Shown here piece after piece: positions 2,647 to 22,364 of a stretch of 45,284 nucleotides of DNA. Under the pieces are notes generated by a model. That model had not been told where the DNA came from. It searched no databases and worked only from the letters and a program-made list of their open reading frames with translations. The stretch comes from a virus. The stretch is from positions 1 to 45,284 of IMG/VR virus record IMGVR_UViG_3300034108_002152. One strand, given 5' to 3'. The position numbers were made by a program, and so were the translations under genes. The first letter of the stretch is position 1; every line of letters begins with the position of its first letter.

Positions 2647-2684
2647 CATGTTACAAAAAAGCCCTTAATTGAAAAGTATTTTTG
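2647..2684 (+). promoter_or_regulatory. Late promoter A (CATGTTACA class) for the lysis module
   Basis: CATGTTACA at 2647-2655, then 21 bp, then TATTTTTG at 2677-2684, which fits the Bacteroidota -7 consensus TAnnTTTG. The start codon of the first lysis gene is 12 nt further on. The same two elements at the same spacing occur at 4684, 8708, 15232 and 22327. Confidence 0.7.
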
Positions 2685-2695
2685 AATAAAAAAAA

Positions 2696-2893
2696 ATGGA
2701 CTTTCAAGATTTTAAACTGTTTTTTTTAAATGTAACTACGTTTCTGGCTATTGAGTTTTCATCAGCAGATGCTTTTCTTAAATTTATTTTAGTTGCTATT
2801 TCTATCGGATATACAACGCATAAGTGGTATCTACTGCATACAACTAATAAAAAAGCAAAAAAGGATAACAAAAAATCAGATGAAGATATTTGA
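2696..2893 (+). CDS. Small membrane protein, holin candidate (65 aa)
   Basis: A 65-residue protein with a hydrophobic segment at about residues 25-42 and a weaker one at 8-20, ending in a very Lys/Asp-rich tail (KKAKKDNKKSDEDI). Small size, hydrophobic core and charged C-terminus, plus position as first gene of an operon that also encodes the endolysin, fit a holin. It overlaps the next gene, another small membrane protein, by 14 nt, so the pair may act as holin and antiholin. This assignment rests on topology and context, not on a recognised family. Confidence 0.6.
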   Translation: MDFQDFKLFFLNVTTFLAIEFSSADAFLKFILVAISIGYTTHKWYLLHTTNKKAKKDNKKSDEDI

Positions 2894-3140
2894 TGATACA
2901 CTCAAGGTAAAAGGAAAATGGTCAAGAACATCACTAACGATGTTCGTTTCTTTTTGTTTGGCTATTTTCATAGGAATAGGCATTGTTATTGCCAGTTATT
3001 TTTTTAAAATAACTGATAATCGTGATGCCATTGCGGTGTTTGATTCCTTTATGCTTTTAGTTTTTGGTCTGTCTGGGATTACTGTTTTTAATAAATTAAC
3101 GCCTTCTAAAGAGGAAAATACTAACGAAACACTAGGATAA
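2880..3140 (+). CDS. Small membrane protein, holin/antiholin candidate (86 aa)
   Basis: Starts at the ATG at 2880 (MKIFDDTLKVKGKWSRTSL). An in-frame ATG further upstream at 2793 would give a tail that merely shadows the preceding gene. Two membrane segments are visible, around residues 18-42 and 53-72, with an acidic C-terminus. It ends 2 nt before the endolysin start. Position and topology make it a second holin-type candidate. Confidence 0.65.
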   Translation: MKIFDDTLKVKGKWSRTSLTMFVSFCLAIFIGIGIVIASYFFKITDNRDAIAVFDSFMLLVFGLSGITVFNKLTPSKEENTNETLG

Positions 3141-3142
3141 TT

Positions 3143-3607
3143 ATGGTAACATCTGCACAATGTCTAAAAAAATACGGAGATCCAAACTTATTAGAAACTC
3201 AAACAAAAAATTTTCAAATTTGGTTGGTTGATGAAGATATTCAAAAAGCATTTAGCCATGTTAGGTTTTCTGCTGTTGGAACCATTGGCTTTCCAAAGAA
3301 AATATTTGTAAACAAAGATTTTCAGCCTGTTTTAGAAAAAGCTCTGCGAAATGTAATCGATAGAGGTTTAGCCAAGGAAATGAAAACTTGGGATGGTTGT
3401 TTTATTATCCGACAAAAAAGAGGATTAAGTTCTATGTCTATACATAGTTGGGCAAATGCTATTGATGTAAATGCGGCAGAGAATGGTTTAGGCAAAGAGC
3501 CTAAATTGTCTGATGCTTTTGTAAAATGCTTTACAGATGCCGGATGTGATTGGGGCGGAACCTGGACACGGAAAGACGGAATGCATTTTCAAATTAAATC
3601 AATATGA
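3143..3607 (+). CDS. Endolysin, M15-family D,D-/L,D-peptidase (154 aa)
   Basis: Peptidoglycan peptidase of the zinc-dependent M15 (VanY/D-Ala-D-Ala carboxypeptidase-like) group. The signature is the SIHSWANAIDVN segment at residues 99-110, giving zinc ligands His101 and Asp108, and GMHFQ near the C-terminus with His148 as third ligand; Asp136 in CDWGG may be the catalytic acid side. The length is normal for single-domain phage M15 lysins. There is no signal peptide, so release would depend on the membrane proteins encoded just upstream. It starts 2 nt after the second holin candidate. Confidence 0.85.
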   Translation: MVTSAQCLKKYGDPNLLETQTKNFQIWLVDEDIQKAFSHVRFSAVGTIGFPKKIFVNKDFQPVLEKALRNVIDRGLAKEMKTWDGCFIIRQKRGLSSMSIHSWANAIDVNAAENGLGKEPKLSDAFVKCFTDAGCDWGGTWTRKDGMHFQIKSI

Positions 3608-3645
3608 AACTCCTCTTTCTACTTTAAATTCAAGAATAAAAAATA

Positions 3646-3975
3646 ATGGGAAGAATTGTCTATATCGTCGGAACCGGCGTTGGAATGACTGTTGAAAGAT
3701 TTTGTCAAGTTCATGCTAACGATATTTTTCTTGTTGAATTAGTAAAACAAGTTCCTGAACAAGTGCTTGAAGGCAAAACGCTGACCTTACATAATTGTTC
3801 AGTCGCTCCGTATGATATTTTAACCGTACCCGAAAACTTTAATCATCATTATCATGAAAAAATCAATTCCTTACCTTATCATCGCCGCACTCGTCGTAGT
3901 GATATTTCTTCAAAACAGTTGCGAGCCAAACCCCTCCAAACCACAAAGTATCGTTATTCCCGAAAAGGAAGGTAA
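3646..3975 (+). CDS. Hypothetical protein (109 aa) overlapping the spanin-like gene
   Basis: The first ~70 residues (MGRIVYIVGTGVGMTVERF onward) read as a normal protein. The remaining ~40 are basic and low in hydrophobic content, and are encoded by the same DNA as the signal anchor of the next gene in another frame (122-nt overlap). The tail may therefore be a by-product of the overlap, or part of a nested lysis-gene arrangement. No family is recognised. The gene lies 38 nt behind the endolysin, in the place where spanin genes are usual. Confidence 0.5.
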   Translation: MGRIVYIVGTGVGMTVERFCQVHANDIFLVELVKQVPEQVLEGKTLTLHNCSVAPYDILTVPENFNHHYHEKINSLPYHRRTRRSDISSKQLRAKPLQTTKYRYSRKGR

Positions 3976-4495
3976 ATCGCCAATCACTAAACCTGAACAG
4001 GTGGTGATTACTCCAAAAAAACCGGTTGTTATTCCAAAAGGGAATAAGAGCCAGGAAGAAATTAATTTTCTTCAAAATCAAATTGATTCCTTGCTCAAGC
4101 AAAATGCAGCCATGGAAGAAGCTTTTGCCAACGAAACAGATTCTTTAAAACAGGAATTATACAATAAAGCCATTGCTCTACGGCTTTATGAAAACAAATT
4201 CAGCGACGATGATGTTGAGATTAATACTACCGGTGTAGTTCGTGGCGAAATCCAATCGATGATTTTTGAGTATAAAATCAAAGCCAAAACAATCGAAGCT
4301 CCGGCAGAAAAAGAAGTCACCTTTCGTCTGATGGGTGGAGTGGAGTTTGGAAACACATTAGAATTTGATTCGTTCCTGGTGAAAGGAAACTTAGGTTTTC
4401 AAAACAAAAAAGGAAACATCTTCACGGCTTCCTTCGACACAGAACAACGAATTTGGGTTGGTTACAACGCGTCAATCTTTAGAATCAAAAACTAA
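3854..4495 (+). CDS. Membrane-anchored coiled-coil protein, spanin-like (213 aa)
   Basis: N-terminal signal anchor at about residues 4-20 followed by NSC (Cys23), a Pro/Lys-rich linker at 25-60, a heptad-like coiled coil at about 66-115, and a C-terminal beta-rich domain. Cys23 could be a lipobox cysteine, but the residues before it are a poor match, so an inner-membrane i-spanin is as likely as a lipoprotein. It lies in the lysis operon after the endolysin, and its anchor is encoded within the 3' end of the previous gene. The role in disrupting the outer membrane is inferred from architecture and place. Confidence 0.6.
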   Translation: MKKSIPYLIIAALVVVIFLQNSCEPNPSKPQSIVIPEKEGKSPITKPEQVVITPKKPVVIPKGNKSQEEINFLQNQIDSLLKQNAAMEEAFANETDSLKQELYNKAIALRLYENKFSDDDVEINTTGVVRGEIQSMIFEYKIKAKTIEAPAEKEVTFRLMGGVEFGNTLEFDSFLVKGNLGFQNKKGNIFTASFDTEQRIWVGYNASIFRIKN

Positions 4496-4668
4496 TGGAA
4501 AAAAAACTTTCCTCTTTAAAATTAAAAAAAGTGCAATTGGTAGACCAAATGACAATGTTGTCTTCTATTAGTGATCACTTTTATATTCAGCTCGGAAAAC
4601 TTGAAGTAGAAATTATTCTCCTCGAAAAAGCAATAGTCAGAACGGCTAAAAACCCTTTAGAAGATTGA
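4495..4668 (+). CDS. Small helical protein (57 aa), last gene of the lysis operon
   Basis: Short frame starting in the taATG overlap with the previous stop and ending in TGA at 4666-4668. The product (MEKKLSSLKLKKVQLVDQ..., ending KNPLEDs last residues LED) is strongly helical with heptad-spaced Leu, Val and Ile and may form a coiled coil. Tight overlap and sensible amino-acid use support a real gene. No function is recognised; pairing with the upstream coiled-coil protein is possible. Confidence 0.6.
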   Translation: MEKKLSSLKLKKVQLVDQMTMLSSISDHFYIQLGKLEVEIILLEKAIVRTAKNPLED

Positions 4669-4683: not shown

Positions 4684-4721
4684 CATGTTACAACAGTTTT
4701 TTTACAAAAGGTCGACTTTCG
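4684..4721 (+). promoter_or_regulatory. Late promoter B (CATGTTACA class) for the capsid operon
   Basis: CATGTTACA at 4684-4692 and a degenerate -7 box, GACTTTCG, at 4714-4721, again 21 bp apart. It is the weakest -7 of the five but keeps the invariant A, T and G positions. The protease start codon follows 15 nt later. Confidence 0.6.
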
Positions 4722-4735: not shown

Positions 4736-5626
4736 ATGAGATTAAATCCGTTATTATCTGAAATATCTCGAGGGTTATGGTGTATGCACATTCCTTCTTT
4801 GGAAATTTATGGTGTTTTAGCTCATAAATTAATCACCGGTGAAAAAATAGAAATGCCTACTGCTAACCAAGATCCTAAAGCCCTGGTTAACTACTTCACA
4901 GAGTCCGGTTCACAAATCAAAATGAATTCTGACGGTCAATACAATTTGCCTAGAAATAGTATCGCAGTAGTAGACATGATTGGAGCCATTATCAAATATG
5001 GCGATTGGTGTACATACGGAGCGGACGAAATTGTTTCTGCTTTGTTTGAAGCCGACAGAAATCCGAACGTAGCAGCTATTGTTTTAAATGTAGATGGTCC
5101 TGGCGGTTCTGTGTCGGCTATTGCTCCGTTCAAAGATTTCGGAATGCGTAAAACAAAACCGGTTGTTGGTTTGTATGATCAATGTTGTTCTGCTCATTTA
5201 TACAGTATGCTTGTTTGTGCTGACCATGTGATGGCATCCAATGACATTTCCGCTCAAATTGGTTCAGTTGGTGTGGTTTTATCCTGGAGAGAAAACAAAG
5301 CTTATTTAGAAAGCCTTGGCTATAAATTCCACGAAGTTTATCCGGATGAATCAGAAAACAAAAATGAAGCATTCCGTTTGGCGATGGATGGAAAGTATGA
5401 TATGATTAAACAAGAAATGCTTTCGCCAATGGCTGTTAATTTTCAAAATGCTGTGAAAGCAGCTCGTCCAAAATTAGATTTAAGAGAACCCGGAGTATTG
5501 ACCGGAAAAACCTTTTTCACCGATAAAGCTATCGGATTGAATTTGGTTGACGGAATGGGGAATCTAAAAGATGCCATGAACATGGCCCTTATGTTGAGTG
5601 AAATGAATCACTATAAAAATTATTAA
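4736..5626 (+). CDS. Prohead protease, S49 (SppA/protease IV-like) family (296 aa)
   Basis: S49-type serine peptidase expected to mature the procapsid. Visible family features: the crotonase-like core with IVLNVDGPGGSVSA at about 115-128, the nucleophile region CCSAHLYSMLVCADHVMAS at 150-168 with Ser152 as candidate catalytic serine, and IGSVGV at 175-180. Fold, spacing and length fit phage prohead proteases of this family. It is the first gene behind late promoter B and lies directly upstream of the capsid gene, the usual order for protease and capsid. In the SppA family Ser and Lys form the dyad; the Lys is not assigned here. Confidence 0.85.
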   Translation: MRLNPLLSEISRGLWCMHIPSLEIYGVLAHKLITGEKIEMPTANQDPKALVNYFTESGSQIKMNSDGQYNLPRNSIAVVDMIGAIIKYGDWCTYGADEIVSALFEADRNPNVAAIVLNVDGPGGSVSAIAPFKDFGMRKTKPVVGLYDQCCSAHLYSMLVCADHVMASNDISAQIGSVGVVLSWRENKAYLESLGYKFHEVYPDESENKNEAFRLAMDGKYDMIKQEMLSPMAVNFQNAVKAARPKLDLREPGVLTGKTFFTDKAIGLNLVDGMGNLKDAMNMALMLSEMNHYKNY

Positions 5627-5644
5627 CTTAATCTATTTACTACT

Positions 5645-7804
5645 ATGAAATGGAAATTTATGGCCAAAACGGTCGCTTTTCTACTTTCTTTTTTAGACGT
5701 CAATGAGATGCCCGTAAATGCGGAAAAGAAAGAAATTGATTTTAGTGCGGCTCAGGAAGAAAAACTGAAAACCGCCTTTAACGAAGAACAATTGGCTGAC
5801 ATGAAAAAAGCTTTGAACAAAGAGCTTCAGGCCATGGAAGACAACTCCTTGACGCTAAAAGCGATTCAAGATGAAATCGATGCCCTTGTGAAAGAATCAG
5901 GGTTAACAGCAGAAGAAATTAAAACAGCCGCCGGCACTCGTGATGGTGATCCTGATTTAGCTGCAAAAGTGAAAGCATTAGGTCAAAAAATGGCCGACTA
6001 TGATGCTAAGTTTTTGAAGTTAATGGATGAGTCATTGGGAGATAGTCCTGAAGCTATAATTAAAAATGCCTCTCCAAAAGTGAAACACAACGCAACCCAT
6101 TTATTTGCATCAGGCAAAGGTTATGATGCATTGGATAGACCTTGGAACAGAAAAGCGGCAGCATTAGCATCGGGTAATATGACCGTTAGTGCAACAGACT
6201 TTACGGACCAACCAACGATTCAGAAGTTAAATGATGATATGAAATTATATTATCGTGAAAACCCAACTGAATTAAAGTCGTTAACTCGTGATAAATTTGG
6301 TTTACCTGATTTTTGGCCTACCAGAACTAAAGTAGATGATTTAGTGGCTGATGCTTCTATCGCTACTGCAGAAGTTTCTCAAAGTAGAAAACTTCCTTGG
6401 TTACCAAAAAACAAACAAACCATTCAAGCAGAAGAAGGAAAAATATTCCCTATCCAAATTGATGCTGAATTCATTGGATTCAGACTTCAAAAAATGGAAG
6501 CTAGCTGGTTGAACATGATGAACAAAGAAGGTTCTCAACCTTATAAAGAATCATTCGTTCGTTTCTTAGTTTCAGAAATCGACAAAAAAGCAAGAATCGA
6601 AGACCGTGTGGCTACCATCAAAGGTATTTATGTGGAAACTCCGGAAAATGCTACTGAAGCAGGTAGAGCTTTAAATCGTCAAAACGGTTTATTGTACTTA
6701 GCTCAACAAGCTCGTGATGTAACTAAAAAATACCGTCCGTTTGATTTAGGGTTACCTACCACTACAAACATTGTAGATTATGTAGATAATTTCATTAAGC
6801 AATTGCCACAAGACGTAAGAGAGCAACAAGGTTTGGTGCTTTATTTATCTGACGAGTGGTTAAGAGCATACAAACGTAGATCAGAAACTTTGTTTGGAAC
6901 AAACATGGATTATTCAGGTTATCCTGAAACGCCAAAAGATTATCCGAACGTGAAGTTCCAACGATTAATCGACATGGGAGGTTCTGACTTTATGTTCTTG
7001 ACTTTTGATGATAACATCGAAATCCTTGAAAACGTTCCGGCTGAAAAATCAATGTACAAATTTGAGTACTTACTTAGAAAAATGTACATCTGGGCTGACT
7101 ACAAAATGGGTATTCGTTTCATTCACATTGGTAACACAGTGGAAGCTGGTGATCCAGATGAGTTTAAAGTACAAACAGTTTGGTCAAACACTGCTCCTAT
7201 TTTTACAAGAGATACTTTTGTGCCATTCCACGAAACATCTGCAGGAACTGCATTGAAACTACCATTTAACAATGTTTATGTTGCTAAAAACAGAACTTCA
7301 AACGTGGTAAGTATTTCTAACTATGCAGATTATGCTGGTCAAGTAATCAAAATTAAAGGTGATGCGGCTCTTGCAACCAACGTATTGGTGAAAGATGACA
7401 ATGCAAAAATCAATTTAACTGCTGATTTTGCATTGAATACTGGTGGAACTTTGACATTGTATGTGCCATTAACTGGTGTTCCTGTAGAAGTTTCTAGAAC
7501 TACTACTCCAGAAACAGTTGCTACAGCTGATGTAAGCTTCAATACAAATGCTATTGATGCTAACTTAGGAGTTGTTTATAAAGCCGCTCATACAGTTACA
7601 ACTGCTATTACTACCGTTCTGAATGGTGTTCCAGGAAAAACAATTGCTATTTATGGAACTGACGCAGTAGGTGTAAATGTAACACTTTCAACTACTGGTA
7701 ATATCAAGTTAGCATCTGCTGCTACTTTGGATACTGCAGCTCACTATATCGAGTTGACCTTGATAGATGGTTTATGGCAAGAAACTAAACGTGTAATTGC
7801 TTAA
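5645..7804 (+). CDS. Major capsid protein with N-terminal scaffold region and C-terminal extra domain (719 aa)
   Basis: Large virion protein after the prohead protease. Residues about 25-165 are charged, helical and coiled-coil-like, as in scaffolding delta domains removed by protease. Residues about 165-510 (from KVKHNATHLFASGKGYDALDR) form a mixed domain with the long Asp/Tyr-rich stretches of HK97-like capsid proteins. From about 540 onward the chain is Thr/Val/Ala-rich with beta repeats, ending IELTLIDGLWQETKRVIA, a decoration-like domain. The three-part layout explains the large size. Met6 is an alternative start. The capsid role is inferred from gene order, size and layout; the fold was not tested. 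Confidence 0.75.
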   Translation: MKWKFMAKTVAFLLSFLDVNEMPVNAEKKEIDFSAAQEEKLKTAFNEEQLADMKKALNKELQAMEDNSLTLKAIQDEIDALVKESGLTAEEIKTAAGTRDGDPDLAAKVKALGQKMADYDAKFLKLMDESLGDSPEAIIKNASPKVKHNATHLFASGKGYDALDRPWNRKAAALASGNMTVSATDFTDQPTIQKLNDDMKLYYRENPTELKSLTRDKFGLPDFWPTRTKVDDLVADASIATAEVSQSRKLPWLPKNKQTIQAEEGKIFPIQIDAEFIGFRLQKMEASWLNMMNKEGSQPYKESFVRFLVSEIDKKARIEDRVATIKGIYVETPENATEAGRALNRQNGLLYLAQQARDVTKKYRPFDLGLPTTTNIVDYVDNFIKQLPQDVREQQGLVLYLSDEWLRAYKRRSETLFGTNMDYSGYPETPKDYPNVKFQRLIDMGGSDFMFLTFDDNIEILENVPAEKSMYKFEYLLRKMYIWADYKMGIRFIHIGNTVEAGDPDEFKVQTVWSNTAPIFTRDTFVPFHETSAGTALKLPFNNVYVAKNRTSNVVSISNYADYAGQVIKIKGDAALATNVLVKDDNAKINLTADFALNTGGTLTLYVPLTGVPVEVSRTTTPETVATADVSFNTNAIDANLGVVYKAAHTVTTAITTVLNGVPGKTIAIYGTDAVGVNVTLSTTGNIKLASAATLDTAAHYIELTLIDGLWQETKRVIA

Positions 7805-7830
7805 TTAGTAAGCTTTAATAATATAAGATA

Positions 7831-8649
7831 ATGTACACAAAAGTAAATTTAACAAAAGCCGCCGGGATTAGTCCCGGGTCGGCTGCTCCAAAGAACACAA
7901 TTGTTCTTGTGGAAGCTCAGGACTTAAACTTTCCTGAAAGCGACTCTAAAGGAGTCAAACTGATAGGGGTTCCTACGGTTAAAGAAGGTGGAAAATTCAT
8001 CACGATTTACTCTACTAAGAGTAAAACCGAAGCATCAATGGAAACAGATGGTGACGAGGATATGATGAACTTTGCTTCTAAGTTTGTGGCTCAACATCCG
8101 GGTAACGGATTACCATTGAAAGAATTTGTACAAAACTGGACCGGAAAAGACATTGTTATTTTCCATAAAGCATGTGGAGATAATTTCTGGGAAGTAATGG
8201 GAACACCTTGTTCACCTTTACAGTTGAAAGCTACCAAACAAGACAATAACGATGGTCGTTTTTACAACTTGTCGTTTGAGCCTTTTGCAAAATCAGGTTT
8301 TGTGCCTAAGCATTATGAAGGAGATGTTCCTTTTGAATTGCCAACAGCTATTGATGATATTGAAGCGGTACACTTAACAGAGGAAAATGGAATCCAATAC
8401 AAAGTTCCTGCGTTAGCTGTAACAGCTGCAATGGAAGTATCTACTATCGATTTAGAACACGGTGAGCACATTGTGTTTGAAGGTGGTGGCGGAGTTGCTC
8501 CTGCAACAATTGCTAACGGAGTTGCCGGTGCAGTTACTGTTCTTTTGAAAAATGGAACAACCTGGACAGCTTTGTCTGGAGCTACTATTCATTTCCAAGT
8601 GTTTCTTGCTGGTGCTACTAAATATTTAGTAGAACTTTCCAGAGCTTAA
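7831..8649 (+). CDS. Probable major tail (tube) protein (272 aa)
   Basis: Beta-rich protein 26 nt behind the capsid gene and the last gene before a strong terminator. Residues 1-205 are mixed beta with a compact domain (KDIVIFHKACGDNFWEVMG and nearby), and about 205-272 is a Gly/Ala/Thr-rich beta segment (GGGGVAPATIANGVAGAVTV) like Ig- or decoration-type add-ons. High expression is suggested by its place next to the capsid gene. Tail tube is the best guess; a capsid decoration or head-completion protein cannot be excluded. Confidence 0.55.
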   Translation: MYTKVNLTKAAGISPGSAAPKNTIVLVEAQDLNFPESDSKGVKLIGVPTVKEGGKFITIYSTKSKTEASMETDGDEDMMNFASKFVAQHPGNGLPLKEFVQNWTGKDIVIFHKACGDNFWEVMGTPCSPLQLKATKQDNNDGRFYNLSFEPFAKSGFVPKHYEGDVPFELPTAIDDIEAVHLTEENGIQYKVPALAVTAAMEVSTIDLEHGEHIVFEGGGGVAPATIANGVAGAVTVLLKNGTTWTALSGATIHFQVFLAGATKYLVELSRA

Positions 8650-8707: not shown

Positions 8708-8745
8708 CATGTTACAACTTTTGAAAAATGTAATTACAATATTTG
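8708..8745 (+). promoter_or_regulatory. Late promoter C (CATGTTACA class) for the terminase operon
   Basis: CATGTTACA at 8708-8716 and AATATTTG at 8738-8745, 21 bp apart. A TGTAATTACA palindrome (8729-8738) lies between them. The first gene starts 27 nt after the -7 box, the longest leader of the five. Confidence 0.7.
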
Positions 8746-8771: not shown

Positions 8772-9668
8772 ATGAGTAATCAATTTAAATTAATCGTCTT
8801 AGCATTTTTAGCCGCTGATTATGCGGATAAATATGAGCAATTCAATAAAGCATTTGAATTGTATAAACAAACGCCTGGTAAAAACATTGGATTAGAAACG
8901 AAGTTAAACCGAGTTGGGTTTACAGATGAGTTTCTTCAATCATTACTTTATGATTTACAGCAATTGAATGGTATAACTGATTTGGAAATAGCTGAAAATA
9001 AAGTTTCTGGAATGAAAGGGAAATCGTCTCCAGAGTTGATTGATGTAGAGTTTGATAGAGTTGAAGCTAGTACAGAAGCTAGTACAGAAGCTAGTACAGA
9101 AGCTCCTGAACAAAGTACAGAACCTTCTAAATTAAAAAATGAAGAATTGCTTGTTTTTGAACACGAAAAGACGTTTGAAGAAAAAACTTTGCGTGAAGAG
9201 TTTCCATTTTTAAACGATGCTAATTGTCCGGAAGTAATGTATGTGGTAGTAGGAAAAAGAATTACTGCTTTTAAACGTTACCAGGAACTGCATGAAAAGC
9301 TTCAGCAAGTAGACTCGGCAGAACCACAAGCAACGGAAGAGGAAAAAACACAATTGGTTCAGGAAACCGAAAAAGCCTATTCTGAAAATCAAGCTTTGTG
9401 GAATGAATTGAATCACTACGGAAGCACCGGAGAGATTTTAGGCAAACATGAATTATTCAAACAACACGTTTTGAAACGGGAAGTAGAGGAAATGAATAAG
9501 GAAGAGTTAGTGAAATTCATTTCCTCTTCAGCCACTTTTTTCTCAAGAAAAAAAGCAGAATTAGGCAAAGCAAAAGAGGCTGATAAAATTGCCAAAATTC
9601 AAACGGCTATTGATGAGCGTGAATACAAGTTAAAACTGGTAAATGAAAAATTAGGTGTCGGTCAATAA
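8772..9668 (+). CDS. Hypothetical acidic protein with EAST repeats (298 aa)
   Basis: Acidic, largely helical protein. Residues about 98-117 form a low-complexity linker made of tandem EAST units that separates a helical N-terminal part from a longer C-terminal part with coiled-coil character (about 165-290). First gene of the operon that leads to the terminase. No family is recognised; a head-associated or packaging-accessory role is suggested only by context. The next gene begins at a GTG inside its 3' end. Confidence 0.65.
   Translation: MSNQFKLIVLAFLAADYADKYEQFNKAFELYKQTPGKNIGLETKLNRVGFTDEFLQSLLYDLQQLNGITDLEIAENKVSGMKGKSSPELIDVEFDRVEASTEASTEASTEAPEQSTEPSKLKNEELLVFEHEKTFEEKTLREEFPFLNDANCPEVMYVVVGKRITAFKRYQELHEKLQQVDSAEPQATEEEKTQLVQETEKAYSENQALWNELNHYGSTGEILGKHELFKQHVLKREVEEMNKEELVKFISSSATFFSRKKAELGKAKEADKIAKIQTAIDEREYKLKLVNEKLGVGQ
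9063..9104 (+). repeat. Three tandem 12-bp repeats, in frame
   Basis: GAAGCTAGTACA occurs three times exactly in a row (9063-9098) followed by a half unit GAAGCT. Each unit encodes four residues (E-A-S-T). Unit length is a multiple of three, so gain or loss of copies would change linker length without a frameshift. Confidence 0.9.
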
Positions 9669-10251
9669 ATTTTTCAATCCAAAAAATATTGTTCAGGAAC
9701 TGAAGGAAGAGCCTATCTCGTCGCAATGGAAGTCAAACTACGTTGCCAAGCATTTTCAAAAAGTGACCAACCTCGAAAATGATTTGATGAGAGTGCCTAC
9801 TCTTGATGAGTTTCTCTTCCTTCAGTCGGACAATGCCTTTAATGCTTTTACGTTCATTCCGTTTGTTGCCAAGCATTATCCTATCAAGGAATTGTATGCG
9901 TCAACCTATTCCATCAGCAATAAAGTGATTCAGGCTTTAGTGGAGCTTCATGATAAAGGAATGGTGGAAAAAATCACACTATTGATTTCGGATAGTATGA
10001 TCAAACGCAATCCGCTCACGATTGAAAATTTAAAAGGAATGTGCAGTACTCGTCCGAACATTCAAGTTTTTTATGCTTGGACACACGCAAAGGTTTGTTT
10101 GTTGCAAACACACGATTTTCATTTCGTGATTGAAGGTTCCGGGAACTGGAGTGAGAATGCTCATTTTGAGCAATATTTATTTGCTAACTGCAAAGGTTTA
10201 TTTGATTTCAGATTGCAATTGTTTGAGAATAATCACTTAAAAAGGTATTGA
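9655..10251 (+). CDS. PLD-like (phospholipase D superfamily) domain protein (198 aa)
   Basis: Single PLD-type phosphodiesterase motif near the C-terminus: WTHAKVCLL with His144 and Lys146, followed by IEGSGNWSENAHFEQY (Gly161, Ser162, Asn164). Only one HxK motif is present, so activity would need a dimer. The Asp of the classic HxKx4D motif is not obvious. The start is a GTG at 9655, 14 nt inside the previous gene; the first internal ATG would remove about 44 residues. It sits in the packaging operon, so a nucleic-acid role is plausible, but substrate is unknown. Confidence 0.65.
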   Translation: MSVNKFFNPKNIVQELKEEPISSQWKSNYVAKHFQKVTNLENDLMRVPTLDEFLFLQSDNAFNAFTFIPFVAKHYPIKELYASTYSISNKVIQALVELHDKGMVEKITLLISDSMIKRNPLTIENLKGMCSTRPNIQVFYAWTHAKVCLLQTHDFHFVIEGSGNWSENAHFEQYLFANCKGLFDFRLQLFENNHLKRY

Positions 10252-10442
10252 TGAAAAAATCCACTTTTTTTTTACTGCTAGGGGTTTTGAATTTTGCTCA
10301 GTTTATTTTCATGGGGATTCAAACGGATTTTGTTAAGATTGAATCCATTGAAATGTATGTTGGTTGGGCTTTTCTATGTCTATTGTTAGGAATAATTTGT
10401 TTAATCATTTGGAAGTATGAATCTAATCGAACTAAAATTTAG
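10251..10442 (+). CDS. Small two-segment membrane protein (63 aa)
   Basis: Two hydrophobic segments, about residues 4-24 and 37-55, with a basic end (KYESNRTKI). It starts at the ATG in the tgATG overlap with the preceding stop (a TTG one codon earlier is less likely), and overlaps the next gene by 26 nt. Location inside the terminase operon is unusual for a membrane protein. Function is not recognised. Confidence 0.55.
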   Translation: MKKSTFFLLLGVLNFAQFIFMGIQTDFVKIESIEMYVGWAFLCLLLGIICLIIWKYESNRTKI

Positions 10443-10746
10443 CGACGAAGAAATCACGCAAGTGATGGATTTAGCCGCATGCAACTATTCTCCGGAAAAA
10501 GTGGCGTTGCAGTTAGATATGGATAAAAAAGCATTCTTGGCAATTTGGAACAACACATCATCAGATGTAAGGTTAGCCTATGAAGCCGGAAAACTAAAAG
10601 CCACTTTTAACATCATGAACAAGCAACGTGAGTTGGCAGAATCAGGAAATATTACGGCGGCTCAAATTTTTCTAAAGGAAAGCGATAAAATAGAAAAAGC
10701 TTCTATTCGCGATAGAATTTTATACCAAGGAATTGATGCTGATTGA
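10417..10746 (+). CDS. HTH-like small protein, possible terminase-associated DNA-binding protein (109 aa)
   Basis: Helical protein. Residues about 8-45 (FSDEEITQVMDLAACNYSPEKVALQLDMD onward) have the spacing of a helix-turn-helix, as in phage terminase small subunits and related packaging proteins. It lies two genes upstream of the large terminase. Either this or the following gene could be the DNA-recognition subunit. Confidence 0.55.
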   Translation: MNLIELKFSDEEITQVMDLAACNYSPEKVALQLDMDKKAFLAIWNNTSSDVRLAYEAGKLKATFNIMNKQRELAESGNITAAQIFLKESDKIEKASIRDRILYQGIDAD

Positions 10747-14847: not shown

Positions 14848-14874
14848 AATGTCAAAAAACTTAATTATTATATG

Positions 14875-14907
14875 TAAATATAGTGATTTCCGTATATATA
14901 CGGAAAT
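14875..14907 (-). promoter_or_regulatory. Leftward promoter with perfect TTTCCGTA dyad operator
   Basis: On the minus strand a -7-like TATATTTA (14875-14882) lies 3 bp downstream of a perfect 22-bp palindrome at 14886-14907 whose core is TTTCCGTATATATACGGAAA. The start codon at 14847 follows about 28 nt after the -7 box. A close copy of the dyad lies at 19685-19704. Confidence 0.65.
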
Positions 14908-15231: not shown

Positions 15232-15269
15232 CATGTTACAAACAATGTAATAGTATCACATTAATATTG
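15232..15269 (+). promoter_or_regulatory. Late promoter D (CATGTTACA class) for the portal operon
   Basis: CATGTTACA at 15232-15240 and TAATATTG at 15262-15269, 21 bp apart, with the start codon 18 nt downstream. TGTTACAA of the upstream element is repeated inverted as TTGTAACA at 15267-15274, over the -7 box. Confidence 0.7.
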
Positions 15270-15286
15270 TAACAAATTGTAATTAC

Positions 15287-15571
15287 ATGGACAGTTTAAC
15301 ACCTACTGAGGCGGTCAAGAGAATGAAAGAACTAACTGAACAGGGTGTGTATTTTGAGTTTACATTCTATTCATACAGTACAATAACAAAGCGTACTGAT
15401 GGTATTAAGACAGTTTCAAAGGCTATGCTTCGTAAGAGTTTAAGAAATGACCAAAGCGAGCTGTCGCATCAGTTGATTAGTTATGTTGATTTAACGTCGC
15501 ATGTTGATGCTAATAGGTTCTTTCATTTACCATTAATGTTGTCTTTTAATAACTATAAAATAAAACCTTAA
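15287..15571 (+). CDS. Hypothetical protein (94 aa), first gene of the portal operon
   Basis: Small soluble protein (MDSLTPTEAVKRMKELTEQG) with a helical N-terminus, a beta middle and a basic segment around residues 45-55. It is followed by the portal gene after 2 nt. No family is recognised. Confidence 0.6.
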   Translation: MDSLTPTEAVKRMKELTEQGVYFEFTFYSYSTITKRTDGIKTVSKAMLRKSLRNDQSELSHQLISYVDLTSHVDANRFFHLPLMLSFNNYKIKP

Positions 15572-15573
15572 CC

Positions 15574-16956
15574 ATGCACATAGATTTCATAGGAAAGGAT
15601 GCGATTGTACAAACTCCTGATGTTGCCTTTACTTATCAGGTAACAGAAAACCCAAGAGACTTTGATTCTCTTCGAGGTAATACTAATACGTTAGATTGGG
15701 ACGACGACAATAACTTCGTTGAAGATTATTTGATATTGCCTTATGGTAGTAACAACGACTTACCGGAGATTATTAAAAAGGCAGTTAAGAATAATGCTGT
15801 TGCTCCTGGTTGGTTGAGTAGAAAGACGGAGTTATTGTGGGGTCTAGGTCCTAGACTCTATAAAGAAGAGCTAAAAGATAATCGTATTGTAAAGACATGG
15901 GTAGAGGATAAGGATGTACAGAAATGGCTCGACTCATTTGACGCTGAACAATACTTACTCGATTCTTCAGAAGACTATCAACACATACAGGGCACATTTA
16001 CCCGTTTTGTTCTTAATCGAGGTTCTCGTCTAGGTAAGCCCTACATAAAAGAGTTATTACATATCCATCCGGATAAAGCTAGGTTAGCTAAAAGAAAAAA
16101 AGAAGAGCGTTCAAAAAAACCTACTCATTGTGTTTATGGTGACTGGAATAACATGTCGCATCCATCATTTTTATCAGAATATAAAGTCTACCCATTATTT
16201 GATTTTAAAGAGCCATTTGCTAAACCAAATGCAATTATGTATTCAAATAAGTATTCATTCTGTACAGATTACTATACCATCCCGGACATATACGGTTCAC
16301 TAGAATGGCTTAATAGAAGTACTGCCGTTCCTTTAATCTTCAAAGCATTGAGTAAAAACGCTATCAATTTGAAGTACCACATACTTTCGCCTTCTAAGTT
16401 TTGGGAAAAGAAGCGACAAGAAATGGAAGATAAGGCACGTAAAAAAGAAGTTCAATTCGAAGAAAGCATGTTCTTAGCCTATCAAACTGAATTTCTTAAA
16501 AAAATTGGAGAAGTATTAAGCGGAGAACAAAACACCGGAAAATACCTTCACACCGTTAAGGAGCTGGTAGTAGAAGGAGTAAATCTTTTAGAGCATTCTT
16601 GGGAAGTAAAAGTACTTGACCAAAACATTAAAGATTTTGTCGAAGCTCAAATACAAATTTCCCAACGAGCAGACAGAGCTGTGGCATCCGGTATTTCTTT
16701 ACACTCGGCTCTTGGAAACATGAGCGAAAACGGAAAAGTAGATTCAGGTTCTGAACAGCATTACGCTCTGATCAGTTACCTAAACACCGGTATTGATATT
16801 CAGGAAATGATTATCACCAAACCGATAAACTATGCGTTAAAAGCTAATTTCCCTGATAAAAACCTGAAAATTGGTTTCTATCACAACGTTCCTGAAAAAC
16901 AACAGGACGTATCACCAAAAGACCGTTCTATTAATACTTCACCTATAAAAGAATAA
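15574..16956 (+). CDS. Portal protein (460 aa)
   Basis: Size, position after the terminase and before the connector genes, and layout fit a portal: N-terminal wing region with DYLILPYGSNNDLPEIIKKAVKNN at about 50-72, a long middle with aromatic-rich stretches, and a helical C-terminal part (about 330-420, QNIKDFVEAQIQISQRADRA and following) that would form the crown and channel helices. It would be the dodecameric ring through which the terminase pumps DNA. Called from architecture and gene order of Bacteroidota phages, not from a catalytic motif. Confidence 0.7.
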   Translation: MHIDFIGKDAIVQTPDVAFTYQVTENPRDFDSLRGNTNTLDWDDDNNFVEDYLILPYGSNNDLPEIIKKAVKNNAVAPGWLSRKTELLWGLGPRLYKEELKDNRIVKTWVEDKDVQKWLDSFDAEQYLLDSSEDYQHIQGTFTRFVLNRGSRLGKPYIKELLHIHPDKARLAKRKKEERSKKPTHCVYGDWNNMSHPSFLSEYKVYPLFDFKEPFAKPNAIMYSNKYSFCTDYYTIPDIYGSLEWLNRSTAVPLIFKALSKNAINLKYHILSPSKFWEKKRQEMEDKARKKEVQFEESMFLAYQTEFLKKIGEVLSGEQNTGKYLHTVKELVVEGVNLLEHSWEVKVLDQNIKDFVEAQIQISQRADRAVASGISLHSALGNMSENGKVDSGSEQHYALISYLNTGIDIQEMIITKPINYALKANFPDKNLKIGFYHNVPEKQQDVSPKDRSINTSPIKE

Positions 16957-16958
16957 CG

Positions 16959-17933
16959 ATGAAAGTACTTTTTAAAGATGAAACATTTGCCGATGAGTTC
17001 AAAGAATTCTTAGGCTTTGTAGATGCCGATTTTACATTGAATAATTTAAAATCAGACATTCTTTCCGCTTCACGCGAACTCGTATCGTTTATTGGTAAAG
17101 AGCTTTATGAAAAAGCAGAAGAATTATTCGATGCTAATACAATTGATGAAGAAGATCCTGAATTCGAATTTCTTCAATTAGTAAAATATTGCACTGCTGT
17201 AAATGGATATCGCCTTTATGCTCCTGACAACGATTTGTCGCACACCAACGATGGTCGTAAAATGCGTAACGAAGAGCATGAGAAAAACGCCTTCGAATGG
17301 ATGATTGATGCTTCCGATAGTTCATTGGAAAAAAGATATTACAGAGTACTGGAACACCTTATCAATTACCTTGATGAGTTAGAAGATTCAGAAGAAGCAA
17401 AATTACTAGCCATTCATGCTATTTGGATTGAAACTGATGCATTCAAAAAACTTAAAAAACATTTCATCCAAAAAGTAGCTGATTTTGATGAGTTCTTCCC
17501 AATCAACTCCAAATTACTTTTAATCAAGTTAGAACCCGGACTATCACTAGCCGAAAAGAATCTGATTTTACCAAGAGTTGGAAAAACAAAGTATGAACAA
17601 CTCTTGGCAGAACCAACCGAAGATGATGCTTCCATCATTCACGCAATTAAGGAAGTTTGTGCTTATTATTCGCTTTCGTGGGCTATTCCTCGAATGAGCG
17701 TCAATATTCTTCCAACCGGAATACTGCAAAAATACTCATCCGATAGAGCGAGTTCTAAAGCTTCGATGGTTCCTGCACTAAACGAATCACAATGGACGGC
17801 CGAATCATTCTTGAATGATGCTCACAGAGCAGCTATTGATTTGGAAAACTTACTCAAACCGGCTCCGGATCCAACCGACAAAAACATTAACCCAACGATA
17901 ACTTATAACGACCAATCTTTCAACTGTATTTAA
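16959..17933 (+). CDS. DUF6712-like head-tail connector protein (324 aa)
   Basis: Helical protein directly after the portal, with the layout of the DUF6712 family found at this place in Bacteroidota phages: acidic N-terminal helices, central KLLAIHAIWIETDAFKKLKK at about 147-167, and a C-terminal part with CAYYSLSWAIPRMSV at about 230-244. A role as connector or adaptor between portal and tail is inferred from position and family. Confidence 0.6.
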   Translation: MKVLFKDETFADEFKEFLGFVDADFTLNNLKSDILSASRELVSFIGKELYEKAEELFDANTIDEEDPEFEFLQLVKYCTAVNGYRLYAPDNDLSHTNDGRKMRNEEHEKNAFEWMIDASDSSLEKRYYRVLEHLINYLDELEDSEEAKLLAIHAIWIETDAFKKLKKHFIQKVADFDEFFPINSKLLLIKLEPGLSLAEKNLILPRVGKTKYEQLLAEPTEDDASIIHAIKEVCAYYSLSWAIPRMSVNILPTGILQKYSSDRASSKASMVPALNESQWTAESFLNDAHRAAIDLENLLKPAPDPTDKNINPTITYNDQSFNCI

Positions 17934-17934
17934 T

Positions 17935-18318
17935 ATGAAAACAATTCAATTATCATTAGCTTTTTTTTACTTTTTATTTATTCAAAGCATTAAGGATGGT
18001 TTCAAAAAAACACGTTTGTTTATTTCATACAAACTAAAATCAGCATTTTACTCAGTAATTAACTTCCGCAAATCACTCAAATTCAAAAAGTATGAACGTG
18101 TGTTGGAAGAAGCTTTATACAAAGAAGAACTTTCTCAAGCCGATTTGATGATAACTATCAAAAATCGAATTAAAAACTTCTACCCAAAAGGGGTTTCAGA
18201 TTACATTCCTTTATCTTGGAAGCAAAAAAGAGAGATTAAAGCAGCTATCGAATTCGAGTATGGAGACCAGATGGCAAAGTATAAAGTAAAACTCAACAAA
18301 AACCTAAAATTCGTTTAA
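17935..18318 (+). CDS. Basic hypothetical protein with N-terminal hydrophobic segment (127 aa)
   Basis: Starts 1 nt after the previous stop and its stop overlaps the next start by one base. Residues 4-18 are hydrophobic and aromatic; the rest is rich in Lys and Arg. The short hydrophobic start could be a membrane anchor or buried helix. Function unknown; likely a virion morphogenesis gene because of its place. Confidence 0.6.
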   Translation: MKTIQLSLAFFYFLFIQSIKDGFKKTRLFISYKLKSAFYSVINFRKSLKFKKYERVLEEALYKEELSQADLMITIKNRIKNFYPKGVSDYIPLSWKQKREIKAAIEFEYGDQMAKYKVKLNKNLKFV

Positions 18319-19253
18319 TGCACACCGTCAGTATTCCAGAGCTCAACATTGAAAATTTTATTCCGGCTGATTTATCGGAATGCGACAGTCAGCAATATAT
18401 GGATATGTCGGGTTTAATTTTTCTCCACCAAACCGCTCAATTATCTTATGAAGAGTTCAGAATTCATGCCATTTACAAATTAATGAACATGAAAGCTGCG
18501 GAATCAAAACGCAACCTTAATTCCAACAAAAAGCTAACTGAAGAAGAAGAAAACAAATATGCAAATGCCTATCGGATATCGGAATTAATCGACACCTTTT
18601 TTGATGAGAACGAAGAACATCAAAAAATCATCAAACAGAATTTTATTCATAACCCAATTCCAAGTTTTAAGCCGCTTTTAACTACTTATTACGGACCACA
18701 AGATTTATTGAGTAATATGAAGTTTGGCGAATACACCGATGCTTTGCGTCTGTTCAATCAAATCAATGCAACCGGTCAAATGGAATTGCTATTTCCATTT
18801 GTGGCAATCCTTTACAGAAAAAAGAAATCATTCATATTCTTCCGAAAATGGTTAAATAAATACAACGGGGATTCACGTTTATCATACAACCAGGCTTCTG
18901 TTGACGCAAGAGCTAAAGTATTCGAAAACGTGCCTATTGGGTTCATCTATGGCGTGTATCTCCTTTTCGGAAGTTTTCAAAAATTCCTCGCTACTGCAGA
19001 AATACAATGGGGCAGTAGTTCCTTAAATTTTGCTATCATTTTCAATGCGGAGGGAAGCGACGATCCTGAAACCATACCCGGCTTAGGAATGGATTCTGTC
19101 ATGTTTGCCATTTCTGAATCAAACGTGTTCGGGAATAAAAAACAACTCAACGACACACCGCTTATCGAGGTGTTGATTCGTATGTACGACATCAGAAAAA
19201 GAGATTTAGAACTTAAAAAACAACAAGAAGATGCTAACCGTAAATCAACTTAA
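18318..19253 (+). CDS. Hypothetical virion morphogenesis protein (311 aa)
   Basis: Mostly helical protein with a charged N-terminal half. A basic segment RKKKSFIFFRKWLNKYNGD is at about 167-185, and GFIYGVYLLFGSFQKFLA at about 206-223 is hydrophobic. It lies among connector and tail genes and overlaps the next gene by 23 nt in another frame. I looked for a slippery site that would fuse the two, as in tail assembly chaperones, and found none. Function not recognised. Confidence 0.6.
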   Translation: MHTVSIPELNIENFIPADLSECDSQQYMDMSGLIFLHQTAQLSYEEFRIHAIYKLMNMKAAESKRNLNSNKKLTEEEENKYANAYRISELIDTFFDENEEHQKIIKQNFIHNPIPSFKPLLTTYYGPQDLLSNMKFGEYTDALRLFNQINATGQMELLFPFVAILYRKKKSFIFFRKWLNKYNGDSRLSYNQASVDARAKVFENVPIGFIYGVYLLFGSFQKFLATAEIQWGSSSLNFAIIFNAEGSDDPETIPGLGMDSVMFAISESNVFGNKKQLNDTPLIEVLIRMYDIRKRDLELKKQQEDANRKST

Positions 19254-19680
19254 AAGTTTACTTCAGGAATCACAAACGGAAATCCCCGGACTTAACAAAA
19301 ACATGCTTTTGTTAGACGATTCCGAACTAACCAATTTTCTAAAGGATTTAAAAACTACCGAAAACTGTGTTTTAATAGGTATCATGCCTCAGTTTCTTCC
19401 AAAAGGAACGGAAGACAGTATTCGATTTATCTCACAGCTCCAGTTCATGATTCTTAAAAAGTCAGCAGACAAAGATTTCAAAAATCATGATGAGTATTTA
19501 GCAATGTTTCAAGAAACTCAGGATTTAATGATGCTTTTTGTTCAAAAACTATTTGGCGAAAAAATGGAAGATTTATGTGGCGGAACAGCCGAATATATCG
19601 AAGAATCTCTTTCCATTTATCCGGTGTGGCGTAAAGCTCAATGCAACGGTTGGGCTTTAGAAATAGATTTGTTAAGTTAA
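19231..19680 (+). CDS. Conserved-type phage protein, possible tail completion (149 aa)
   Basis: Starts inside the 3' end of the previous gene. Mixed alpha/beta protein with a Met/Leu-rich central part and YPVWRKAQCNGWALEIDLLS at the end. Size and place between connector and tape measure genes suit a tail completion or neck protein. No family is recognised with confidence. Confidence 0.55.
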   Translation: MLTVNQLKSLLQESQTEIPGLNKNMLLLDDSELTNFLKDLKTTENCVLIGIMPQFLPKGTEDSIRFISQLQFMILKKSADKDFKNHDEYLAMFQETQDLMMLFVQKLFGEKMEDLCGGTAEYIEESLSIYPVWRKAQCNGWALEIDLLS

Positions 19681-19684
19681 ATTA

Positions 19685-19704
19685 TTTCCGTATATTTACG
19701 GAAA
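19685..19704 (+). promoter_or_regulatory. Rightward promoter overlapped by TTTCCGTA dyad
   Basis: TTTCCGTATATTTACGGAAA: 8-bp arms around TATT, with TATATTTA (19691-19698) as the likely -7 box inside the dyad. The start codon of the next gene is at 19714, so the leader would be only about 8 nt. Confidence 0.6.
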
Positions 19705-19713
19705 CTTTATAAC

Positions 19714-19956
19714 ATGAACCAACTAGAAATCGATTTGCTTTTCAACGAAGTCATTAAGCAAAGAGGCGTTTATCACAAATTAGAAGGAATCACTGAAAAC
19801 ATGATTTACAACTGGCGAAAAGGCCGTGGCAAAAAACCAGATATCGGAACCATGCTCGGTGTTTTGTTTCAATTAAATCTTATCGGAGTACTTGATAAAA
19901 GCAACAAAGGAATTACCTATATAAAAATGAATTACAAAGGTGAAATAGTTCAATAA
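19714..19956 (+). CDS. Small HTH-like protein, putative regulator (80 aa)
   Basis: Residues about 10-50 (VYHKLEGITENMIYNWRKGR and around) resemble a helix-turn-helix with a basic recognition helix, as in small Cro/XRE-like proteins. It has its own promoter covered by a dyad, which suggests self-repression. It sits within the portal operon 33 nt after the previous stop, and the next gene follows after 1 nt. The same dyad controls the leftward cassette at 14.85 kb, so this protein is a candidate regulator of both. Confidence 0.55.
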   Translation: MNQLEIDLLFNEVIKQRGVYHKLEGITENMIYNWRKGRGKKPDIGTMLGVLFQLNLIGVLDKSNKGITYIKMNYKGEIVQ

Positions 19957-19957
19957 A

Positions 19958-20332
19958 ATGGCAAACTTACTCAAACAACGAACCAATAACGACGACGACA
20001 TCCTTCAAGGTCGTTTCGTTCGTAAAATGCTACAGGAAACAGCAAATGAAATCCAACAGGCTTCTTCAAAAAAAATGGGTTCGTTTAAATCTTCCTTTTG
20101 GGCAAATCGTTCGTTTTCAGTCACCGATAACGAAATGCATTATGATCACCTCAAAGTGCATCGCTTCATCGATATGCGAACCAGAACCGCAAGTGATGGA
20201 ACCAAGCAAAAGAAAAAGTTTTACCCAATTCACAACCGTATTGTAATGGGACAATATAGTCAGTTAGTGCGTGAATTATCGTTTGGGTTTACGGAAGAAA
20301 TTAAAAACCAACTAAGGTCTATCGGAGACTAA
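19958..20332 (+). CDS. Hypothetical phage protein (124 aa)
   Basis: Basic, polar protein with FKSSFWANRSFSVTD at about 43-57 and HRFIDMRTRT at about 68-77, a pattern like small tail-terminator or head-tail joining proteins with a beta core and helices. It lies in the connector/tail region. Function is inferred from position only. Confidence 0.55.
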   Translation: MANLLKQRTNNDDDILQGRFVRKMLQETANEIQQASSKKMGSFKSSFWANRSFSVTDNEMHYDHLKVHRFIDMRTRTASDGTKQKKKFYPIHNRIVMGQYSQLVRELSFGFTEEIKNQLRSIGD

Positions 20333-20406
20333 AAATTTTTTATTTTTCTTACAATAATTGGAATGCTTTTTGAGTTTGTTTAAATTAACTAATAAATAAA
20401 CTTATT

Positions 20407-20571
20407 ATGGCAAAAAAGAAAAACCAACTCAAAGCAGCTCACAAAGTTTTCAGGCATTATTTTATGGTTTTGTGCGAAAGTGAACACATGGATGATCTTT
20501 CACTTCGAAAAGAATTCATTTTTGCCCTAGATACTATCAAACAAACCTACAAAGCACAAAAGGGAAATTAA
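20407..20571 (+). CDS. Small basic helical protein (54 aa)
   Basis: Short frame (MAKKKNQLKAAHKVFRHYF...) ending in a TAA that forms the loop of the terminator. Basic N-terminus, then a helical acidic-to-basic body. Regular amino-acid use and a good A-rich upstream region support it. Function unknown. Confidence 0.6.
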   Translation: MAKKKNQLKAAHKVFRHYFMVLCESEHMDDLSLRKEFIFALDTIKQTYKAQKGN

Positions 20572-20582
20572 TTCCCTTTTTT
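20558..20582 (+). terminator. Terminator of the portal operon, overlapping a stop codon
   Basis: Stem AAAAGGGAA (20558-20566) / TTCCCTTTT (20572-20580), 5-nt loop containing the stop codon of the 54-aa gene, followed by TT. It separates the portal operon from the lipoprotein gene. Confidence 0.75.
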
Positions 20583-20584
20583 CG

Positions 20585-20592
20585 TATATTTG
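20585..20592 (+). promoter_or_regulatory. Host-type -7 box for the lipoprotein gene
   Basis: TATATTTG fits the Bacteroidota TAnnTTTG box exactly, 25 nt upstream of the lipoprotein start. There is no CATGTTACA element, so this gene probably uses the unmodified host RNA polymerase and can be on in the lysogen. Confidence 0.6.
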
Positions 20593-20617
20593 AGTTTTAA
20601 ACATAATAATTTACAAT

Positions 20618-21148
20618 ATGAAAAAAATTCTAATTTTTGTATTTTTTATCTTTTTATCCTGTAAACAGGAAGTTGTTGAACAAGAAAGAATTTATACTGC
20701 TGAGGAGAATTATGTTCTTTATATGCAAATTGGAGAGACTAAGGATAAGGCCTTAATGCAATATACTATTGAAAGTCTTGAAAAACTAATTACAGATTCA
20801 ATATCAATTGATTTGAAAAGTAAAATATTAAAATCGGTAGATAGTTTAAAAATCATTTATGAAAAAATGCCAAAGCCAAAGCCAATAGATTTGGTTACAG
20901 ATGAAGATATTGATAAACAATTTTCAAATTATAACGGTTCTCACATTAAACTTGAAGAATATATAATTACCAACATGAACAATCCGGATAGTTATGAGCA
21001 TGTTTCTTCTAGTTATAAAAAGTTTGATGATTACTTACTTGTTTTATTGAAATTTAGAGGAACTAATGCTTATGGTGGTGTTGTGACACAAGAAGTATCT
21101 GCAAAATGTTCTTTATTTAATGGGGATGTAATAGAAATAATCAAATAA
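20618..21148 (+). CDS. Lipoprotein, probable lysogenic-conversion gene (176 aa)
   Basis: Classic lipoprotein signal: MKK, hydrophobic residues 4-13, then LSC with Cys15 as lipidation site, followed by a charged soluble domain. It has its own host-type promoter and its own terminator, inside a late region, which is the usual layout of a moron expressed from the prophage. Phage lipoproteins of this kind often change the cell surface or exclude other phages, but nothing in the sequence identifies the activity. Confidence 0.75.
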   Translation: MKKILIFVFFIFLSCKQEVVEQERIYTAEENYVLYMQIGETKDKALMQYTIESLEKLITDSISIDLKSKILKSVDSLKIIYEKMPKPKPIDLVTDEDIDKQFSNYNGSHIKLEEYIITNMNNPDSYEHVSSSYKKFDDYLLVLLKFRGTNAYGGVVTQEVSAKCSLFNGDVIEIIK

Positions 21149-21149
21149 C

Positions 21150-21171: not shown

Positions 21172-21173
21172 TT

Positions 21174-21888: not shown

Positions 21889-22015
21889 GAGATATATAAA
21901 TTAAAAAACCTACCCATAGGCTGCAGAACAAAAACAACCAAAGTTGAAGTGATGCCCCGTTTCTCTCGGAGCTTCCTATGGGATAGGCTGGATTTTTTAC
22001 TAATGAAATGTACAT
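21836..22015 (-). CDS. Small single-pass membrane protein (59 aa), tentative
   Basis: Starting at 22015 (MYISLVKNPAYPIGSSERNG) the frame encodes one clear membrane segment, about residues 26-43 (LQLWLFLFCSLWVGFLIYIS region), then a polar tail. A different frame over the same DNA is also open, and the 3' end overlaps the next gene by 53 nt, so the call is tentative. The hydrophobic block with polar flanks favours this frame. Confidence 0.4.
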   Translation of the reverse strand: MYISLVKNPAYPIGSSERNGASLQLWLFLFCSLWVGFLIYISHAEQKQQSASQLVIISD

Positions 22016-22094
22016 GGTTATTTTTATTCTGCACAACAAACGTACCGTAAACCTTTCAAACCACCAAAAAAAACTTGTGTATTTACATAAAGTT

Positions 22095-22128
22095 CTACTT
22101 ATATGTAAAATAATTTACTTAGGTGTAA
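22095..22128. promoter_or_regulatory. Pair of 14-bp operator dyads (22-kb control region)
   Basis: CTACTTATATGTAA at 22095-22108 and TTACTTAGGTGTAA at 22115-22128, starts 20 bp apart. They match the operators beside the repressor gene (32634, 32664) and upstream of the fibre operon (43238, 43258). They lie upstream of the leftward operon. Confidence 0.65.
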
Positions 22129-22148
22129 TGTAATTGGGTAAGAATATT

Positions 22149-22235
22149 TATATTTGAATCGGTTTTTAAGGGTTTATAAATTGCATTGTTCTATCATGTC
22201 AAAACCGCTATGTCGCCATACATAGCGGTTTTTAT
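22149..22235 (+). ncRNA. Candidate short transcript between a TATATTTG box and an orphan terminator
   Basis: TATATTTG at 22149-22156 is a perfect -7 box; a strong terminator begins 45 nt later. A transcript starting near 22163 would be about 70 nt long and contain no convincing protein. No good -33 element is visible. This may be a small regulatory RNA, for example acting with the immunity operators just upstream, but it is a prediction from signals only. Confidence 0.35.
22201..22235 (+). terminator. Strong orphan terminator upstream of the tape-measure promoter
   Basis: Perfect 13-bp stem AAAACCGCTATGT (22201-22213) / ACATAGCGGTTTT (22220-22232), 6-nt loop, followed by T-rich DNA. No rightward gene precedes it since the lipoprotein gene, which has its own terminator. 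It also insulates the next promoter. Confidence 0.85.
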
Positions 22236-22241
22236 TTTTTT

Positions 22242-22306
22242 ACACTCCAACTCTGGAGAGTAAACTATCCAAGGTTAGAGAGTAAACGCTCCAATTTTGT
22301 TAGTAA
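22242..22306 (+). repeat. Three tandem 21-22 bp direct repeats upstream of late promoter E
   Basis: Units at 22242-22263, 22264-22285 (22 bp each) and 22286-22306 (21 bp) share the pattern AC-nn-TCCAA-nnnTnn-(a)nAGTAA. They end 20 bp before CATGTTACA of promoter E. Two helical turns per unit suits side-by-side binding of a regulator; 22 bp is also a usual iteron length. Confidence 0.65.
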
Positions 22307-22326
22307 ACAAAAAAAAGCGTAAATCT

Positions 22327-22364
22327 CATGTTACATCTTTTTACATTTTTTCAAAGCAATTTTG
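22327..22364 (+). promoter_or_regulatory. Late promoter E (CATGTTACA class) for the tail operon
   Basis: CATGTTACA at 22327-22335 and CAATTTTG at 22357-22364, 21 bp apart, with the tape-measure start codon 17 nt downstream. It differs from the other four sites in having T, not A, after CATGTTACA. Confidence 0.7.

Follow-up and report, generated by a model that had tools for sequence, protein, structure and literature searches.

Evidence for an activator-dependent late promoter class in Bacteroidota phages, probably read by a LuxR-type protein

The DNA analyzed here (hereinafter, the window) comprises all 45,284 nucleotides of the IMG/VR virus record IMGVR_UViG_3300034108_002152 (positions 1 to 45,284). 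Judging from its sequence, it is a phage contig related to the Duneviridae (Flavobacterium phages laban6-1, 6H, and 23T and Cellulophaga phage Ingeline), and it looks temperate, based on the integrase encoded at 30946-32190. Its relevant features are as follows.

2647..2655, plus strand: late-promoter element CATGTTACA of the lysis operon; conserved in relatives at the orthologous place
2677..2684, plus strand: -7 box TATTTTTG, offset +30
2696..4668, plus strand: lysis operon, including a Peptidase_M15_4 endolysin (M15 peptidase) at 3143-3607
4684..4692, plus strand: late-promoter element CATGTTACA of the head protease/capsid operon
4714..4721, plus strand: -7 box GACTTTCG, offset +30
4736..8649, plus strand: capsid operon, with the head maturation protease at 4736-5626 (phrog_53) and a 719-aa capsid-region protein at 5645-7804
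8708..8716, plus strand: late-promoter element CATGTTACA of the packaging operon
8738..8745, plus strand: -7 box AATATTTG, offset +30
8772..13043, plus strand: packaging-side operon, with a PLD-like protein at 9655; a terminase role for 11178-13043 is inferred from position only
15232..15240, plus strand: late-promoter element CATGTTACA of the portal operon
15262..15269, plus strand: -7 box TAATATTG, offset +30
15287..21148, plus strand: portal operon, with a match to the Ingeline portal (37%) at 15574-16956
22327..22335, plus strand: late-promoter element CATGTTACA of the tail operon
22357..22364, plus strand: -7 box CAATTTTG, offset +30
22381..30956, plus strand: tail operon, whose first gene encodes the tape measure protein (PhageMin_Tail)
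32296..32604, minus strand: probable repressor, with a weak HTH_3 match (phrog_3/phrog_21356)
32634..32677, no strand: candidate repressor operators between the repressor and the early operon, with a perfect palindrome TTACTTATAAGTAA at 32664-32677
33017..33568, plus strand: proposed late activator, with an N-terminal domain containing invariant C76, C100, C106, and C113 and a C-terminal LuxR/NarL-type HTH
33482..33484, plus strand: codon for Leu156 of that protein, a residue of the recognition helix whose identity changes with element base 6
43238..43271, no strand: two further near copies of the TTACTTATAAGTAA operator, before the 43306 operon

Between the packaging and portal operons, the minus strand encodes an unknown protein (14437-15048), in the orientation opposite to that of the late genes and conserved in 22 genomes or contigs of the first relative set. 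Also on the minus strand, at 40603-42783, an HNH-endonuclease-like protein adjoins a DNA-methyltransferase-like protein. This pair is probably mobile cargo; laban6-1 has a similar annotated pair (gp007/gp008) elsewhere in its genome.

The 9-mer CATGTTACA occurs in five copies, all on the plus strand and none on the minus strand of the whole window, versus 0.53 expected on both strands together, and every copy lies ahead of the gene that opens a lysis or virion operon. At all five sites, a -7-like box starts exactly 30 bp after the first C of the element, and the start codon follows 12 to 27 nt from the box; these sites and distances had been listed in a preliminary description of the window, and all were recovered. 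The composite pattern CATGTTACA-N22-ANNNTNG has 5 matches (0.02 expected), and CATGTTACA is the sole 9-mer with five copies in the element-box geometry, a number that never exceeded three in 100 Markov shuffles. The invariant part of the box (.A...T.G) is found at 5 of 5 sites at offset +30 and at no more than 1 of 5 at each of the other offsets between 10 and 59. The boxes are -7-like, but GACTTTCG and TAATATTG deviate from the TAnnTTTG consensus, and the core common to all five is nAnn[T/A]T[T/C]G.

A palindrome, GTAATTAC, is located at 8730-8737, shortly before the packaging promoter's -7 box, and again at 15279-15286, immediately before the start codon of the portal operon, and its variant GTAATCAC lies at 22373-22380, immediately before the start codon of the tail operon. 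In relatives, GGTAATTACC or GGCAATTGCC is found at the place of these palindromes, which are possibly the site of a second regulator.

Relatives were gathered by similarity to the portal and to the 33017-33568 regulator, and whole contigs were then read. Conservation was tested with class-specific patterns at the five orthologous operon starts in a set of 51 genomes or contigs of phages from Flavobacteriaceae and other Bacteroidota. The elements have the following spellings.

Class A: TGT[T/C/A]ACA
Class B: GCGTCACA, in G019, G020, G022, G067, and Chryseobacterium prophages
Class C: TGTCTTAA, in 6H, 23T, G016, G051, and G040
Class D: TGTCCTTT, in Ingeline and others
Class E: TGTAACR
Class F: TTTGGCAC
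Class G: CCTTGCT

The element of the phage's own clade was present about 21 bp before an nAnnTT box at 179 of 217 orthologous late operon starts, compared to 2% of random places and 0 to 5% for wrong-class patterns in class A genomes. The other 38 of the 217 starts failed the automated test, some of them through -7 variants or contig edges; in a class F phage, G058, all five failed, yet the element is visible by eye. No clear element was found in G028, G069, x137, or the second Chryseobacterium prophage (G036b). When 7-mers in upstream gaps were counted without supervision, the clade's element ranked first or close to it in many genomes, several of them with a different spelling. When TGTnACA lies in an upstream gap, a box of the form nAnn[T/A]T[T/C][G/A] is found at exactly +30 in 53 of 89 cases, versus no more than 12 of 89 at any other offset and 10 of 325 at +30 from TGTnACA in coding sequence. 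In classes D, E, F, and G, the box is offset by 28 from the start of the 7-mer at nearly all listed sites. Position and spacing of the element are conserved family-wide, and its spelling is clade specific. Counting the element in the window and its relatives supports the earlier proposal of one phage-specific late promoter class: there are five copies in the window, and the same geometry recurs before orthologous operons in dozens of relatives, with the correction that CATGTTACA itself is not conserved. One hallmark of activator-dependent late promoters, a shared element placed identically ahead of several late operons within a single phage, is thus present.

In Flavobacterium johnsoniae, the -7 element spans T-12 to G-5 and transcription starts 4 to 5 nt further (PMC6847099). 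With the first base of the box taken as -12 on this scale, the fixed position of the element despite its changes in spelling puts the 7-mer at about -40 to -34, overlapping the place of the host -33 TTTG, in relatives as well as in the window; the suggestion that the element replaces this host box is thereby supported. Late leaders would be approximately 7 to 22 nt long (PMC6847099 scale), the start sites themselves being inferred. The -7 box criterion of the Bacteroidota sigma-A promoter (TAnnTTTG) is met in the looser form given above for the 53 of 89 gap sites. The -33 TTTG criterion is not: TTG 17 to 23 bp upstream of the -7 box is found at 0 of 86 nonredundant sites, an absence that is mostly automatic because the element fills that place.

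The late element is absent from the early region and from the 43306 operon, both of which carry TTACTTATAAGTAA or near copies of it (19 near matches in the window versus 3.7 expected), in line with a late class that serves the lysis and virion operons. The palindromes at 32634-32677 and 43238-43271 are probable repressor operators; lying at the early promoter and at that of the 43306 operon, they are consistent with control by the repressor candidate 32296-32604. The resulting cascade, from repressor to the early operon with 33017 and on to the late operons, is inferred.

The second gene of the early operon (33017-33568) encodes a 183-aa protein whose HTH matches NarL/GerE-type domains by both sequence and fold and meets the LuxR-type HTH criterion of NarL/FixJ response regulators; GerE is the sole Pfam family matched by most members. 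The AlphaFold model is confident (pLDDT, 94.9). Its fold matches in the PDB are LuxR/NarL-type proteins aligned via the HTH, most of them over only ~55 to 68 C-terminal residues; a few LuxR alignments run the length of the chain, with a root mean square deviation of 13 to 16 Å. The N-terminal domain has no PDB sequence match and, in fold searches, no convincing relative. Its four invariant cysteines (codons within 33242-33355; spacing C-x23-C-x5-C-x6-C) suggest a metal or Fe-S site. Pfam and fold comparisons revealed no receiver domain with a phosphorylatable Asp, and Pfam, PDB sequence, and fold searches revealed no autoinducer-binding domain. The same gene family has been annotated as LuxR in Duneviridae flavobacterial phages and read as quorum sensing (PMC8776804), a role that is not supported here because neither a receiver nor an autoinducer domain was matched. 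Relatives of the regulator are found in 16 of 28 records (including fragments) and in 13 of 15 genomes that bear a prophage. Conversely, of 34 contigs with the regulator, 29 have the portal of the late module as well.

This protein had been put forward as a candidate reader of the element, and both its co-occurrence with the late module and the covariation of its recognition helix with element spelling speak for it. The helix reads FHL or FHF in phages with TGTTACA and FHK or FHQ in most TGTCACA phages. Residue 156 is K or Q in 21 of 24 rows with C at element base 6 and L or F in 8 of 9 rows with TGT[T/A]ACA, i.e., with T or A at that base (Fisher P of about 1e-4, uncorrected for descent). When the helix is aligned to NarL, the changed positions 155, 156, and 159 presumably correspond to base-contacting residues of that protein. 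On a tree of the N-terminal domain only, T-type elements need four changes, and every T-type placement (the window, G011, G052, and the G041/G050/G044 clade) has L or F at 156. For four contigs, the helix was read while the element was still unknown; G042, G052, and G040 fitted, and G043 (K with TGTAACA) did not. The other exceptions are G045, G046, and G048, which have L with TGTCACA. Phages with GCGTCACA have a different helix, GT[F/L]xVxKT, and classes F and G share the same helix residues (FNVFRT) with different elements. In a blind scan covering 20 phage proteins (4,837 alignment columns), residue 156 ranked only 15th for covariation, and columns in proteins unable to read DNA covaried with spelling as well as it did; shared descent accounts for part of the signal. 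A tree-based sign test, with only two well-supported pairs, was not significant. The covariation points to the regulator as the reader, but we rate it as suggestive, not decisive, because the blind scan did not single out this protein.

The same scan leaves room for real activator-dependent promoters read by some other phage protein, such as the 90-aa (32726-32998), 163-aa (43306-43797), or 178-aa (2108-2644) product, with the LuxR-HTH protein controlling something else. In breadth of conservation, these genes are close to the regulator, and several proteins have columns whose covariation with element spelling equals that of residue 156; however, none of the three matches a DNA-binding domain of known specificity, whereas the regulator has a clear LuxR/NarL HTH with a recognition helix that varies with the element, and we consider another reader improbable. 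A more remote case is that an alternative or phage-encoded sigma factor recognizes the element as a -33-like box. The LuxR-type HTH family resembles sigma region 4 in structure, and one distant relative, in Bacteroides phage Versailles, is annotated as a sigma factor, but the -7 box remains of the host sigma-A type and the regulator shows no match to sigma region 2, its profile being GerE/NarL rather than that of sigma models. A protein that stands in for region 4 alongside sigma-A remains possible, and this variant grades into the preferred explanation. Equally hard to sustain is the idea that the promoters are of the ordinary host type and the element is an operator through which a phage or host repressor silences the late operons in the lysogen: the phage looks temperate and a repressor could act at the -33 position, but with the element in place of TTTG a derepressed promoter would have no -33 box, and the probable operator of the repressor is another palindrome, TTACTTATAAGTAA.

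We therefore favor, at a probability of roughly 0.78 and with no RNA or binding data, the view that the five sites form one activator-dependent late promoter class used by the host sigma-A polymerase, most likely read by the 33017-33568 protein. The promoter class as such is well supported, with its mechanism and timing inferred; that the LuxR-HTH protein is the reader is probable, on the joint strength of its domain, genomic position, co-occurrence, and covariation. Host sigma-A polymerase would recognize the TAnnTTTG-like -7 box, and the lineage-specific short element at about -40 to -34 would take the place of the missing -33 TTTG. The early-made regulator would bind the element through its C-terminal HTH and recruit or stabilize polymerase, so that all five operons (lysis, capsid, packaging, portal, and tail) would come on at the same time, later than the early operon. 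The N-terminal four-cysteine domain may hold a metal or Fe-S site and perhaps contact polymerase. Direct binding, activation, and the role of this domain are, like the timing, inferences. A bolder and tentative extension is that one activator family with a previously undescribed four-cysteine domain replaces the sigma-A -33 contact across Bacteroidota phages, with at least 7 element specificities at a fixed position, possibly as orthogonal pairs; in this reading, the cysteines would be ligands of a metal or Fe-S cluster and might make late expression dependent on redox or metal state.

In the open-access papers searched, we found no described late promoters for these Bacteroidota phages, whose hosts rely on an unusual sigma factor. 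The late-promoter model is precise, applies to dozens of phages and prophages, and can be put directly to the test, since it names one candidate regulator and element spellings have been exchanged in nature. The model also suggests another function for genes currently regarded as quorum-sensing regulators and a way of recognizing late operons in sequence data, and the promoters and their activators could become inducible, possibly orthogonal, pairs for use in Bacteroidota genetics.

The phage sites resemble the Bacteroidota sigma-A promoter (-33 TTTG/-7 TAnnTTTG) in the type of -7 box and in short leaders but hold a clade-specific element of 7 to 9 bp at the -33 TTTG position. In P2-type late promoters with Ogr/Delta, a small cysteine-containing phage activator likewise acts with a conserved element before each late operon. 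Ogr, however, has the zinc motif CX2CX22CX4C, which the invariant cysteines of the present protein (C-x23-C-x5-C-x6-C, combined with a NarL-type HTH) do not meet, and its site lies further upstream than the present element. Phage Mu, with its late activator C (PMC4461284), is similar in being a temperate phage in which one phage activator serves several late operons with host polymerase; the element and the host promoter system differ. The LuxR-family regulators of flavobacterial phages (PMC8776804) are the very gene family studied here and were assigned to quorum sensing, whereas the present data fit a late activator.
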